Below, in pieces: positions 25,998 through 36,751 of a stretch of DNA of 64,000 bases. Origin of the DNA: Prochlorococcus sp. AG-363-P08. GTDB lineage: Bacteria; Cyanobacteriota; Cyanobacteriia; PCC-6307; Cyanobiaceae. The notes under the pieces were generated by a model. It did no database searches and had not been told where the DNA came from. It was given only the letters and a program-made list of their open reading frames with translations. The DNA lies in NCBI GenBank assembly GCA_003278195.1, contig QCGE01000001.1, positions 1 through 64,000 on the forward strand, given 5' to 3'. Numbering within the stretch: the stretch's first letter is position 1; each line of letters begins with the position of its first letter. Made by a program: the position numbers and the translations under genes.

Positions 25998-26488
25998 GAA
26001 CTAAATTTTAGATTAGTTAATCAAAAGGATTTTGAAAAAACGGCATTCAAAGCTTTTTAAAAATCTAGTAGAAAACTCGTTTCTTCAAAAGAAAGGTGCC
26101 GATGAGGGTAAAAGCAATCATTATTAACCTTATGTCACCTTGGCTATTCTAAAAACTCGACTTTTCAGTAGCCAACTGAAATTGATTGCCGCCAGAGTGA
26201 TCTTCATGAGTCCAATGGAGAGACAATTACCAAGCTTATTAATACGCTATAGAACATTTGTTACTTGCCTTTTGTAGGGACTGTCTCTCCGATCTATGCT
26301 CTATAAAGCGGTCCCCTTACCGGGGCCCACTCGCTCCAGTGTCAAATAAGGGTGAATCCCTTATTACCACTGGCGCCCGGAGATAGCACTACTTAGTTGA
26401 AGTGATGTCTTCGGGGCCCTGCCAAGCCTTAGGGCTTGTCCAAGGGGTGGCCCTCCACCTCGATACCCGTACCTCGAGGAACCTCTCG
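25998..26488 (+). promoter_or_regulatory. psaA promoter and long GC-rich leader
   Basis: A 491-base gap before psaA. The left half is AT-rich and should hold the promoter (TATAGA near 26249 and TATAAA near 26302 are possible -10 boxes, not proven). From about 26277 it turns GC-rich, with alternative pairings: GGGAC (26277-26281) can pair with GTCCC (26311-26315), while CCCC there can instead pair with GGGG (26322-26325). In-frame codons extend upstream of the psaA ATG to a GTG at 26402, but the encoded 29 residues do not resemble PsaA. Confidence 0.55.
26336..26373 (+). promoter_or_regulatory. Stem-loop in psaA leader
   Basis: AATAAGGG (26345-26352) pairs perfectly with CCCTTATT (26358-26365) around a TGAAT loop, and the outer blocks CCAGTG (26336-26341) and CACTGG (26368-26373) pair too, giving a 38-base hairpin with a small internal loop. 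It has no T-run and lies about 115 bases before the psaA start, so it looks like a leader RNA element rather than a terminator. Confidence 0.7.
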
Positions 26489-28738
26489 ATGACCATTAGC
26501 CCACCAGAGCGTGGGAGTAAGGCGATTTACGACCAACCTGTCGACAGGGACCTAGTCCCAGCCGATATTGAAAAAGCCGGTCAACCCGGTTTTTGGTCAA
26601 GAAGCCTGGCTAAAGGCCCCAAAACCACAACCTGGATTTGGAACCTCCACGCTGACGCTCACGATTTTGAAACCCACATCGGTGACCTGGAAGAAACAAG
26701 CCGAAAGATTTTTTCGGCCCATTTCGGACACCTAGCCGTAGTATTTATTTGGATGAGTGGTGCCTTCTTCCACGGTGCCCGCTTCTCTAACTACAGCGGT
26801 TGGCTGGCAGACCCGACGCACGTGAAACCCGGTGCGCAAGTGGTCTGGCCAATAGTCGGCCAAGAAATAATGAATGCCGATCTAGGTGCCGGATATAGCG
26901 GCATGCAGATCACATCAGGCATTTTCCCAATGTGGAGGGCCTGGGGCATCACTAGCGAGACAGAACTAATGGCTTTAGCCATTGGCGCTCTAGTGATGGC
27001 AGCCCTAGTTCTCCATGGCGGGATTTATCACTACCACAAAGCAGCACCAAAGCTTGAGTGGTTTAAAAAGATCGAATCAATGCTCCAACACCATCAGATT
27101 GGTCTGATAGGTCTTGGATCAATTGGTTGGGCTGGTCACTTGATTCATGTGGCAAACCCAACTAATGCAATGCTCAATGCCATTGATGCAGGCACTCCGC
27201 TGTCTATTAGTGGTAAAACAATTGCAAGCGTTGCTGACATTCCTCTTCCACATGAGCTTTACAACTCAGACGTTGTTGGGCAGATCTATCCAGGAGTTGC
27301 TTCTGGCATAGGAAACTTCTTCAGCCTTAATTGGTGGGCATTCAGTGATTTCCTTACCAATAACGGTGGAGTTGATCCTGTAACAGGAAGTCTTTGGGCG
27401 ACAGACATTGCTCATCACCACTTGGCTTGGGGTGTATTTGCCATTTTTGGTGGCCATATGTGGCGTAACACCATGGGCATTGGTCACAGCATGAAAGAGA
27501 TCATGGATAACGCCAAAGGCGATCCAATCCTCTTCCCTGCGCCTAAAGGCCACCAAGGAATTTTCGAATTCTTGAGCAATAGCTGGCACGCACAACTTTG
27601 CATCAACCTTGCAATGGTTGGTTCTGCGAGCATCATCGTTGCGCATCACATGTATGCGTTACCTCCTTATCCCTATTTGGCAAATGACTACGCCACTGTG
27701 CTTGGTCTATTTACCCATCACATGTGGATTGGTGGATTGATGATCTGTGGTGCAGCTGCTCATGGTGGAATCGCAATGGTTCGTGACTATGACCCTGCTT
27801 TACATGTAGACAACGTGCTTGATCGAATCCTCAAAGCACGGGATGCATTAATTAGTCACCTCAACTGGGTATGCATGTTCCTAGGCTTCCATAGCTTTGG
27901 CCTATATATCCATAACGATGTAATGCGTGCATTGGGTCGTCCAGGGGACATGTTTAGCGACACAGCGATCCAAGTCCAACCTGTTTTCGCACAGTGGACA
28001 CAACAGCTTTGGCAAAATTCAATCGGCACAGCATCTCTTGTTGGCGCTGGTGAATTGCCAGGAGGAATTAGTGATGCGTTCTCAATGCCTTTGGGAACAG
28101 CTGACTTGATGATCCATCACGTTCATGCCTTCACTATCCACGTAACCTTGCTGATCCTTCTCAAGGGTGTTCTTTACGCAAGAAGTTCTCGTCTTATTCC
28201 AGACAAGGCGCAACTAGGCTTCCGTTTCTCATGTGATGGTCCTGGACGTGGTGGTACATGTCAGGTTTCCTCTTGGGATCACGTATTCCTTGGTCTCTTC
28301 TGGATGTATAACTCCATCTCAGTCATCATTTTCTACTTCTCCTGGAAAATGCAAAGTGATGTATGGGGTCTTACAAACGGCAACTTTGCGCAAAGCAGCA
28401 TCACCATCAATGGATGGTTACGTGATTTCCTATGGGCCCAGTCCTCACAGGTTCTCACCGGCTATGGCAATGCATTAAGCGGCTACAGCCTTCTATTCCT
28501 TGGAGCTCACTTCATTTGGGCTTTCAGTTTGATGTTCCTCTTCACTGGCCGCGGTTATTGGCAAGAGCTTTTTGAGTCAATTCTTTGGGCTCATAACAAG
28601 CTGAGATTGGCTCCAGCCATTCAGCCTAGAGCTCTATCTATTACTCAAGGCCGTGCAGTGGGTGTCACTCACTTCCTTCTAGGCGGTATTGTTACCACCT
28701 GGACCTTCTTCCATGCCCGCCTTCTTGGGCTCGGCTGA
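26489..28738 (+). CDS. psaA: Photosystem I P700 apoprotein A1
   Basis: PsaA, 749 residues, binds P700, A0, A1 and half of the FX cluster. The start MTISPPERG matches PsaA of other picocyanobacteria and has GAGG ten bases upstream. FX ligands C582 and C591 lie in [10 protein letters not shown]. The motif is preceded by Ser where Pro is usual (FSCDG instead of FPCDG). The region around residues 510-535 ([24 protein letters not shown]) is shorter than in relatives I remember. About the first 500 coding bases use more G/C-ending codons than the rest. Confidence 0.98.
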
Positions 28739-34027: not shown

Positions 34028-34786
34028 TCATGAAAGAGTAGAGCCGTCATAACAACAATCAACTCGCCCTGCCCCCCTCAACATAGAACGATAATGGCAG
34101 GCCAAGCGACTCATATCTGAATGGTATAAACAATCTAAGCCAATTCCATTCCTTCCATTTTCATTGCCAGAACTATGCCAATAGTGACCATTTCCTTTGT
34201 ATATAGCTACATGTGTACATCGAGAGTCAGTGCCAAAAAAAATTAAATCCCCGGGAATTAAGTCTTTAAAATTTTCATGATTTATTGGAACTGGTTTACA
34301 GAAATTTTCTTGTTGATATGCGTCTCTTGGCAACCAAATACCATGACTAGCAAACGCCCACTGAACTAGTCCAGAGCAATCAAAGTTTGGCCCTAAAGTT
34401 CCACCCCAAAGATACCTATTAGGACGATTAGAGGCCTGCTCGATCGAGGCAAGAACTTCTTTCAATCTCAAACGAATCTCCTTGTTACTTAATAATTGAG
34501 GTTTAAAAGCATCTAAGTCGATTCCTTCCACTAAAAGATCTTGGACCTTAAACCAGCATTGATAGCCATCTTCTAACAAACGAACATTTACGGTTTCTAA
34601 ATAAACTTGCGAAACCAGAGACTGTTTTCTTGACCTCTTAAGAATTTCAAAACACCTGGTAGCACATGCTTGTGTAGCCAAGACACGACCATTTTTTGCA
34701 GCATAACCATTAATACTTTTTTTTAATTTCCAGTAACTACCTGGCACAAATAATTCTTTTTGATCAGTGGTGACTATTGTCGTCAT
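34028..34786 (-). CDS. NlpC/P60 peptidoglycan endopeptidase
   Basis: A 252-residue protein with an N-terminal SH3-like region (about residues 15-80) and a C-terminal NlpC/P60 domain. The catalytic residues appear to be C137 (NFDCSGLVQWAF), H192 (THVAIY) and H204 (YWHSSG). Similar cyanobacterial enzymes cleave D-gamma-Glu-diaminopimelate bonds in peptide stems. No signal peptide is visible, which fits a recycling role, though export by other means is not excluded. Divergent from the serine hydrolase gene with 17 bases between starts. Confidence 0.85.
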   Translation of the reverse strand: MTTIVTTDQKELFVPGSYWKLKKSINGYAAKNGRVLATQACATRCFEILKRSRKQSLVSQVYLETVNVRLLEDGYQCWFKVQDLLVEGIDLDAFKPQLLSNKEIRLRLKEVLASIEQASNRPNRYLWGGTLGPNFDCSGLVQWAFASHGIWLPRDAYQQENFCKPVPINHENFKDLIPGDLIFFGTDSRCTHVAIYKGNGHYWHSSGNENGRNGIGLDCLYHSDMSRLACHYRSMLRGAGRVDCCYDGSTLS

Positions 34787-34803
34787 TATCTAAATCGAGC
34801 GCA

Positions 34804-35703
34804 ATGGCGTTCTATCGTTGCAGCAAAACTATGCATGCCCAGCTGGGCAGCCTTCTAGATCAACTTGAGCAAGAAGGCAGGCCTGGTCTTCGCAATAACA
34901 CAGCAATTACATGGATAACTTACGAAAAACAAAATCCGTCTAGTAAGAGCGGCTCTGGAGCCAGCTGGTTAAATGACAAACTTCTTTACCCTGCAAGCGT
35001 TGTCAAATTAATCTATGCAGTTGCAACAGAAGCATGGCTGCAAAAAGATTTAATTCCAGAAAGCGAAGAAACGCGAAGAGCTTTACGAACGATGATTCAA
35101 GAATCAAGCAATGATGCTACTGGTTTAATTGTTGATCTACTAACTGGGACAACAAGTGGACCATCATTGATTGGGGATGGATGGGATAAATGGGTTACAC
35201 AACGGCAATTAATTAACAAATGGCTTAGTGAATTGAACTGGCCAGAGCTCAAAGGCTTTAATTGCTGCCAAAAAACATGGGAGGACGGTCCATATGGACG
35301 CGAAAGGGATTTCTATGAATCTGACAACAGCAATCGGAATGCTCTTTCCACAGATGGAACAGCGCGCATATTGGAAGCTGTTATGACCAATGCTTTTCTT
35401 TCACCGAGGGCTTGCAAAAGATTAAAAGAAATCCTTTCAAGATCTCTTGATATCAAGCAAAGAAAAGAAAACCCGCTAAACCAGGTGGATGGATTTATTG
35501 GAGCTGGTTTGCCAAAAGGTTCTCAGCTATGGAGTAAAGCGGGCTTAATGAGCACAGCAAGGCATGATGCCGCATGGTTCTCTACACCTGGATCAAATCC
35601 TATGCTTTTGGTGATATTTACAATGGGACGTGAGCGCTCAACTGACAATTTTCTACTGCCAGCAATTGCTAACGGGCTAATTAAATTTAAAAATAAAAGC
35701 TGA
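34804..35703 (+). CDS. Class A beta-lactamase-like serine hydrolase
   Basis: About 299 residues with the penicillin-binding/beta-lactamase class A fold. The SxxK motif is SVVK (S65, K68) in LLYPASVVKLIYAV, the SxN-like motif is in IQESSNDATGLIVDLL, and the third motif reads LWSKAGLMSTARHDAAWF, with KAG where KTG is usual. No signal peptide is obvious. A D,D-peptidase or related esterase is as likely as a lactamase. ATG 34804 was chosen over a TTG at 34777 that would overlap the divergent NlpC gene. Confidence 0.75.
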   Translation: MAFYRCSKTMHAQLGSLLDQLEQEGRPGLRNNTAITWITYEKQNPSSKSGSGASWLNDKLLYPASVVKLIYAVATEAWLQKDLIPESEETRRALRTMIQESSNDATGLIVDLLTGTTSGPSLIGDGWDKWVTQRQLINKWLSELNWPELKGFNCCQKTWEDGPYGRERDFYESDNSNRNALSTDGTARILEAVMTNAFLSPRACKRLKEILSRSLDIKQRKENPLNQVDGFIGAGLPKGSQLWSKAGLMSTARHDAAWFSTPGSNPMLLVIFTMGRERSTDNFLLPAIANGLIKFKNKS

Positions 35704-35789
35704 AGCCTCTATAAAAAAATCCCAAGCAGGTTCAAAATAAAGCAGTTTTGCCTATTGGATTTTTAAACGCCGATGGTTAGAACTTAAGT

Positions 35790-35862
35790 AGGACCCAACG
35801 AGATCGAACGTAGAAATCAAATCAGATCTCAAGGGGTGAGGGGGAGCTATGCTCCCCCTTCT
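35790..35862 (+). ncRNA. Candidate small RNA with two hairpins
   Basis: In the 323-base gap after the serine hydrolase, GAGATC (35800-35805) pairs with GATCTC (35825-35830), and just downstream AGGGGGAGC (35839-35847) pairs perfectly with GCTCCCCCT (35851-35859) around a 3-base loop. The second hairpin is very GC-rich for this genome and could end either the hydrolase message or a short independent RNA. The T-run after it is poor (TTCTTC). I cannot assign it to a known Yfr family. Confidence 0.35.
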
Positions 35863-36026
35863 TCATTGAAGTCTGTTTTAGAAATCTATTTGTAATAAAA
35901 CAGTCTTCAATAAAAAGAAATTAAAATTCTCTAGGCCAACAAGATTCATATATCTATCGCAAAGAGGGGGCTTTTTTTATGGGCCTATGCCGTGATAGAC
36001 CAGAGGAGACTATTAAGGACGAGACA

Positions 36027-36221
36027 ATGCCATTCAATCGTTCTAGATGTGCAACTTGCCGAAACTTTGGAGGATGTCCACTGGAAGGTGGTTTCTGTCG
36101 AGTGTGGAATGTTCCTATCTCTTCTAATGATGTAAGGAGGTACAGCTGCCAACATTGGTCTATACAACAAAAAGGAAAACCAGCTCTTTTACCCAATGAC
36201 AGCATCCCTTCATTTGTCTAA
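36027..36221 (+). CDS. Small Cys-rich protein, unknown
   Basis: A 64-residue protein with five cysteines: CATC (C8, C11), C17, C24 and C41 followed by QHW. The spacing suggests a small metal or Fe-S site but matches no rubredoxin or zinc-ribbon pattern I know. ATG 36027 has AAGGA seven bases upstream; an in-frame ATG at 35979 behind GAGGGGG would add 16 residues and is a real alternative. It lies 26 bases before the next small gene. Confidence 0.65.
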   Translation: MPFNRSRCATCRNFGGCPLEGGFCRVWNVPISSNDVRRYSCQHWSIQQKGKPALLPNDSIPSFV

Positions 36222-36247
36222 GAATTAAATAAAGGTAGGAATAAAAA

Positions 36248-36481
36248 ATGAATGATAGCTTTTCAAAAGAAGTAGCCATTAGGGCACTTTTAAAGACCAA
36301 AGGATATGAATTTGATCATCATCATCATTGGTGGGTGAGAGAATGGAGTACAAATAACGGTCAAGAGAAAGTATTAGAAGTAGCGGCAAAAGGAGACAAT
36401 GGTGAATGGCAAAAAATGATGATGAAGCCTGATGGCTACTTGTTTTATACAGAGACGATCAGAGAGGAAATAGAAGAATAA
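36248..36481 (+). CDS. Small His/Trp-rich protein, unknown
   Basis: A 77-residue soluble protein with FDHHHHWWVREW in the centre and a C-terminal KPDGYLFYTETIREEIEE. I do not recognise the family. A ribosome site (AGGTAGGA) stands about 8 bases before the ATG. It follows the Cys-rich gene by 26 bases, so the two may be co-transcribed. Four adjacent His residues could bind metal; that is inference. Confidence 0.65.
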   Translation: MNDSFSKEVAIRALLKTKGYEFDHHHHWWVREWSTNNGQEKVLEVAAKGDNGEWQKMMMKPDGYLFYTETIREEIEE

Positions 36482-36605
36482 ATTGTTTTCTAGATAATTT
36501 CTTTATTTAAAATAGAAGAGTAAAATAACTAATGATTGAGAAATAAGCTCTTGCTAAGTGAAATCCTAAAAAGCATTTTTCACTTTATAAAGAAGCAATT
36601 AGGAA

Positions 36606-36694
36606 CGGAGAGGGAGGGATTCGAACCCTCGACAGAAGTTACCTCCTGTAACTCCTTAGCAGGGAGCCGCTTTCAACCACTCAGCCACCTCTCC
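36606..36694 (-). tRNA. tRNA-Ser (anticodon GCT)
   Basis: On the minus strand the acceptor GGAGAGG pairs with CCTCTCC, discriminator G. The D arm is GGCTGAGTGGTTGAAAGC. The anticodon loop reads CTGCTAA, giving GCT. A long variable arm (TTACAGGAGGTAA) and the T loop GGTTCGAATCC complete a class II serine tRNA of 89 bases. CCA is not encoded. Confidence 0.96.
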
Positions 36695-36751
36695 AGAAGC
36701 CCTACCTTATAACAGTGGCCAAATATCAAAAGAAATAGATAGTCATGATCT

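Follow-up and report, generated by a model that had tools for sequence, protein, structure and literature searches.

The stretch of Prochlorococcus sp. AG-363-P08 DNA analysed here (64,000 nt, termed the window) contains, behind a gene of the beta-lactamase fold, what looks like a separate small-RNA (sRNA) gene belonging to a multi-copy family of marine picocyanobacteria. Two short protein-coding genes, P1 and P2, follow it. We consider it likely (probability roughly 0.7) that the multi-copy sRNA gene is free-standing and that P1 and P2 are separate genes sharing the same variable site. The sRNA would be transcribed from its own two-element promoter, ending at a GC-rich hairpin, and we infer that its action is probably in trans, through either base pairing (of a large A-rich loop or of the tail) or protein binding. 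P1 and P2 would have come to lie between the beta-lactamase-fold gene and a tRNA-Ser gene, with P1 read from a promoter-like motif of its own and P2 probably carried on the P1 transcript. The best reading of the site from its sequence is a trans-acting sRNA together with small-gene cassettes that share a variable site next to a tRNA gene. A multi-copy family of structured sRNAs with an upstream signature of its own, unmatched by Rfam 15 and located in variable sites next to genes of small proteins, would give very abundant ocean phototrophs a testable regulator of their island genes. Two studies report that Prochlorococcus has few protein regulators and has kept many small RNAs (PMC2518516, PMC6778093).

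The window belongs to a 1.58-Mb genome in 37 contigs (G000 in our numbering of genomes; loci are numbered L). The gene order at the site is NlpC/P60, beta-lactamase-fold gene, sRNA, P1, P2, tRNA-Ser(GCT) and alanine racemase (Table 1).

Table 1. Features of the site in window coordinates, and loci at which the sRNA precedes a third gene, P3
Feature	Position or locus	Strand	Remarks
beta-lactamase-fold gene (Beta-lactamase2)	34777–35703	+	left border of variable site; listed ORF, start codon not settled
promoter-like element of sRNA family	35741–35758	+	about −49 to −32; consensus AGGTGTTTTTCCTCATGG; from 89-copy profile and four-copy alignment
−10-like TTAGAA of sRNA	35777–35782	+	from alignment and family profile
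sRNA	35790–35867	+	about 78 nt; probable 5′ end at 35790, probable 3′ end past GC-rich hairpin
5′ hairpin of sRNA	35793–35837	+	internal loop between helices of 4 bp and 6 bp; apical loop 19 nt
GC-rich terminator-like hairpin of sRNA	35838–35860	+	stem 9–10 bp; TTCTTCATT directly 3′
A+T-rich imperfect inverted repeat	35866–35910	.	third stem-loop, 3′ of sRNA
promoter-like CCGTGATAGACCA 5′ of P1	35990–36002	+	motif common to other P1 genes
P1, 64-aa Cys-rich protein	36027–36221	+	CxxC-x12-C-x16-C core
P2, 77-aa protein	36248–36481	+	one helix and five strands predicted; lacks upstream motif of most P2 genes
tRNA-Ser(GCT)	36605–36695	−	right border of variable site
RNA–P3 loci, first part	L072, L076, L078, L079, L091, L122, L123, L125, L127
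RNA–P3 loci, second part	L159, L160, L161, L162, L164, L171, L176, L189, L199

Structure and upstream elements of the probable sRNA gene

The initial annotation had described two tandem hairpins ahead of P1, one with a GC-rich stem, as a candidate small RNA. The hairpins are real: the segment 35780–35935 folds at −48.8 kcal/mol, compared with −29.5 ± 3.4 kcal/mol in 200 shuffles (z −5.7), and holds three stem-loops in all. When folded separately, the sRNA core reaches a z of −4.2 and the segment 35866–35912 with the A+T-rich repeat behind it −5.0. The repeat is not seen behind the three closest sRNA copies (judged by eye; the DNA matches end before it), and within the window it has no further place besides its own two arms.

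Both sRNA hairpins recur with compensating changes. Among 106 distinct rows, 17 of the 19 pairs are changed on both sides, a value that none of 500 shuffles equalled, and slid controls gave 3–8. In the alignment of all 115 matches, 96.9% of the cells are paired versus 79.6% after shuffling, with two-sided changes at 17 versus 10.3 pairs; because this alignment was fitted to the structure, the covariation leans towards it. An earlier set of 33 matches, fitted to a model of four sequences, had given two-sided changes at 14 of the 19 pairs versus 8.4.

Two elements precede the RNA in 89 copies (effective number 39): AGGTGTTTTTCCTCATGG at −49 to −32 and TTAGAAA at −13 to −7. A simple sigma-70 scan flagged no promoter at the sRNA or at P1, and one site elsewhere where 3.1 were expected. 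At the other end, a terminator scan makes a terminator-like call at the GC-rich hairpin; its U-tract is weak, so that read-through into P1 is possible. An ATG lies directly 3′ of the hairpin in 57 of the 89 copies. Transcription and both RNA ends are predictions from sequence. The proposal of a small RNA is well supported by covariation and conservation, by the number of copies and by the promoter-like sequence that belongs to the RNA itself.

Distribution and sequence types of the sRNA family

A DNA search for close copies covered 201 genomes of the family and found them in G031, G079 and G011; three other genomes gave matches of 28–34 nt, all inside the A+T-rich part. The four copies of the window type begin with AGGACCC or AAGACCC, 3′ of a TTAGAA or TTATAA hexamer, and all have the 5′ hairpin and TTTTGCCTAxTG upstream. 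The sequence of the GC-rich hairpin varies among the four and its pairing is kept. A covariance model built from these copies matched in 26 of 400 genomes, and a second model, built from 30 matches, placed the sRNA in 123 of the 400 family genomes at E ≤ 0.001. The 123 include 52 of the 251 good genomes, and some of the matches lie near the threshold. Each positive genome has 1–6 matches among those listed; the window's own genome has a second strong copy at G000:C21:11625–11702.

Grouped by eye, the copies make up roughly five sequence types. The 89-copy set was hand-picked from the 115 matches, with most identical copies left out and the weak L088 kept. Counts of neighbouring genes use 105 of the 115: three duplicate loci, one truncated, one odd and one weak copy and four antisense echoes were removed, and the truncated L199 and long L211 copies were kept. 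At L081, several sRNA copies stand in a row around P1, followed by more hairpins with long T-run ends.

The P1 and P2 proteins

Judged from their relatives, P1 and P2 are real protein families. Both open reading frames that the initial annotation had pointed out, one with five cysteines and one with HHHHWW, are present, separated by the 26 bases it gave and preceded by AAGGA and GTAGGA, respectively. It had recognized neither family, and the two proteins indeed lack any match in Pfam (up to E 1) and in PADLOC. The sole NCBIfam match is to P2, at E 0.13, and the PHROGs matches (E 0.14 and 0.015) are to families of unknown function. Rows of single relatives come somewhat closer to described families: those of P1 touch three families (best E 0.028), and for P2, 4 of 15 rows reach DUF1579, at a best E of 0.0024.

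P1 was found in 38 of 201 genomes by a single-sequence search and in 104 of 400 by a profile search at E ≤ 0.001, where weak matches make up more than half of the places listed. Aligned against named genomes, it occupies 9 loci, every one from Prochlorococcus single cells of the AG-363 or AG-409 series. Across 22 rows, C8, C11 and C24 never vary and C41 hardly does, unlike C17. The four conserved cysteines may bind a metal. Their CxxC...C...C spacing is shared with HiPIP-like and other small four-Cys proteins, and a PDB profile search up to E 5 yielded a single match, to a HiPIP at a non-significant E of 3.8. Structure prediction gave no confident fold for P1 (mean pLDDT 55.7). A phage origin of P1 was rejected, as neither phage records (at E 0.1) nor viral contigs contain a match.

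P2 occurs in 23 of 201 genomes and is predicted with higher confidence (mean pLDDT 86.9). At the position of the window's histidine cluster, 7 of 14 aligned relatives have ENQ, preceded by a variable residue, and most of the others have DNQ, NNQ or something similar. HHHH appears in none of the 14, and we rejected a metal role for this cluster; of the metal ligands that the initial annotation saw in both proteins, those of P1 alone are left. A fold search of the PDB with P2 gave a best E of 0.7. Phage records contain no match to P2, and a relative at 35–37% identity is present on four marine viral contigs. Among viral folds, P2 comes closest to a protein of Synechococcus phage S-CAM9, at an E of 0.022, short of 0.001. 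On the marine viral contig L111 (4613–5183), a distant P2 relative lies directly behind a gene that we take, from its sequence, to be Nfu-like.

Both families have upstream motifs of their own, picked by eye from the sequences before counting. Of 33 distinct P1 starts, 11, including that of the window, have GTGNTA[GC][AT] upstream (0.5 in letter shuffles); no member of the distant P1 group is among the 11. TTGCTAnnA precedes 16 of the 23 P2 genes (0.08 in shuffles) and is missing at the window's P2, which therefore probably depends on the P1 transcript. These motifs speak against the leader-led operon that the initial annotation had suggested.

The variable site in related genomes

The beta-lactamase-fold gene and the tRNA-Ser gene enclose different contents in different relatives. 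G168, G155 and G259 (L075, L080, L083) have the sRNA at the same site in the absence of both P1 and P2. In G079 the sRNA is inverted at this site and P1–P2 lie on another contig, and in G043 and G014 P1 occupies the site with sRNA copies on other contigs (among the matches listed). The order in G031 is beta-lactamase-fold gene, P1, sRNA; G011 has P1, sRNA, P1, P3; and G173 has a truncated sRNA copy 5′ of P1 and three copies 3′ of it. Because the RNA is found at the site without P1 and P2, and also inverted, it is hardly a leader of these genes or the 3′ end of the hydrolase message. The proposal of an RNA leader of a metal or redox operon thus finds no support at the window locus. In G043, the beta-lactamase-fold gene and P1 are separated by another hairpin-rich stretch (L030:1730–1796, complement).

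The possibility that the hairpin is only the terminator of the beta-lactamase-fold gene message, which the initial annotation had raised against itself, draws on its position: the sRNA begins 86 nt behind the gene here and about 87–95 nt behind it in G168, G155 and G259. We regard this as very improbable. Many members of the family stand at loci where no beta-lactamase-fold gene was found, with their upstream elements unchanged, the RNA is inverted relative to that gene in G079, and the covariation extends to the 5′ hairpin.

Linkage of the sRNA, P1 and P2

The three parts cluster loosely, though far more often than chance predicts, with P1 taken at E ≤ 1e-9. Among the matches listed, P1 and the sRNA lie within 3 kb of each other in 10 of the 21 genomes with both (0.22 expected), P1 and P2 in 5 of 10 (0.04 expected), and P2 and the sRNA in 6 of 20 (0.20 expected). 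The chance values are rough, since genomes are treated as independent and placement as uniform, and kinship inflates all the counts. Two pairs are borderline: in G028 the RNA partner of P1 is a truncated copy at 2.7 kb, and in G052 P2 and the sRNA are also 2.7 kb apart. P1 and P2, which the initial annotation expected to remain neighbours in relatives if they formed an operon, are direct neighbours in only 2 of the 10 genomes with both (G000 and G079), so that adjacency is largely not kept.

This clustering is also what a true metal or redox module, with sRNA, P1 and P2 held together by selection, would produce. Such a module is improbable: order, strand and spacing vary, the parts lie apart in 11 of 21, 5 of 10 and 14 of 20 genomes, the P2 relatives lack HHHH, and shared cargo of variable sites would give equal clustering.

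Beyond this site, 15 of the 105 sRNA copies (a raw count) point towards a tRNA gene whose 3′ end lies no more than 1300 nt away. The tRNAs are Cys (6), Ser-GCT (4), Asn (3), Ser-CGA (1) and Phe (1). Linkage and flanks together fit a picture of small cassettes exchanged among variable sites. Tycheposons, the tRNA-flanked cargo islands of Prochlorococcus, which are expected to have an integrase and tRNA attachment repeats, resemble the sRNA site in that variable genes lie beside tRNA genes. PMC2518516 places 9 of the 21 MED4 sRNAs in genomic islands and describes homologues that shift between sites, which agrees with the cassette picture.

RNA–P3 loci

A different arrangement is seen in 18 of the 105 copies, in which P3, a membrane-like protein of about 59 aa with no good Pfam match, is encoded on the same strand 54–97 nt behind the sRNA, across a conserved spacer. 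In 15 aligned loci the spacer contains AAGGAAGGGC, which is nearly complementary to GCCCUUCUU in the 3′ arm of the hairpin (pairing judged by eye). By translated BLAST, the upstream flanks of these loci form 8 groups, with 11 of the 18 loci in one, and the downstream flanks of 17 loci form 6 groups. A three-codon frame, AUG-NNU-UNC-UGA, also follows the hairpin in the 15 aligned RNA–P3 loci (positions 77–88 of the first alignment row, L072) and may be due to chance in an otherwise conserved sequence.

An arrangement with the RNA as leader, ahead of P3, seems possible at these other loci. Extended to the whole family, this would make the sRNA a mobile 5′ leader or attenuator, whose promoter and hairpins govern the small gene behind, P1–P2 in the window and P3 elsewhere. 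The potential pairing of spacer and hairpin, the occurrence of the RNA–P3 unit in varied flanks and the U-poor RNA tail all point in this direction, as does P1 on the same strand behind the sRNA in the window and in G011, and 1.2 kb behind it in G020. We nevertheless consider a general leader role unlikely. P1, P2 or P3 follows on the same strand within 1300 nt in only 21 of the 105 copies, the 15 copies noted above point at a tRNA 3′ end, P1 lies ahead of a complete sRNA copy in G031 and G173, and in the window a promoter-like motif belonging to P1 lies between the sRNA and P1.

A mobile regulatory cassette, in which the RNA acts both as a free sRNA and, at loci with a small gene behind, as a switchable leader of that gene, is a comparably tentative idea. 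If true, the two-element promoter and two-hairpin RNA would be a cassette copied around genomes, with some copies beside tRNA genes, and would tie the island small-protein genes P1, P2 and P3 into one regulon. We retain the free-standing sRNA gene as the preferred reading.

Comparison with known RNAs

Rfam 15 has no family at gathering score on the sRNA; the best low-scoring one is ncr1575, with 27.9 bits versus a threshold of 60. Nor did cmscan, run on 18 sRNA loci with E up to 0.5, place any family at the sRNA. In the literature, where sRNA sequences stand mostly in supplements and figures, we found no text that could be matched to this sequence.

The Yfr2–Yfr5 RNAs (Cyano-1, RF01701) are similar in being multi-copy and dispersed and in combining a 5′ hairpin with a terminator hairpin, but they differ in sequence and loop motif. 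The Yfr2 family has a GGAAACA repeat in the 5′ loop, as described in PMC1242208. This motif is present in 1 of the 89 sRNA copies, which is not the window copy, and the RF01701 model does not match the sRNA, leading us to reject identity with Yfr2/Cyano-1. Cyano-1 occurs alongside the sRNA in all nine genomes searched, at places that do not overlap. Some sRNA copies lie 0.5–2.5 kb from Yfr2 (G031:C1:748449/748920, G011:C21:5878/4766, G079:C2:21572/23957).

The motif core of Yfr1 and Yfr10 is CTCCTCAC / CUCCUCAC. It occurs in none of the 89 sRNA copies, and identity with these RNAs was also rejected. Upstream of the P1–RNA–P1 group of G011, ACTCCTCACACC at L060:1940–2010 (complement) is presumably a Yfr1 motif. 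Like the sRNA, Yfr1 and Yfr10 are small structured picocyanobacterial RNAs, and Yfr10 is of similar length, 78 nt in MED4 as given in Table 1 of PMC2518516.

A relation between the sRNA and Yfr103 is possible. A longer unit that begins with the sRNA occurs in a genome that we take to be CC9605, complete at two places and partly at a third. PMC5069720 reports Yfr103 as a multi-copy RNA of low-light Prochlorococcus and marine Synechococcus, with seven paralogues in CC9605; an imperfect palindrome is conserved around positions −58 to −29 relative to its start. Compared by that description, its length of 290–328 nt differs from the roughly 78 nt of the sRNA.

Elsewhere in the window, the psaA RNA (Rfam RF01752) matches at 26293–26492 with 147 bits.
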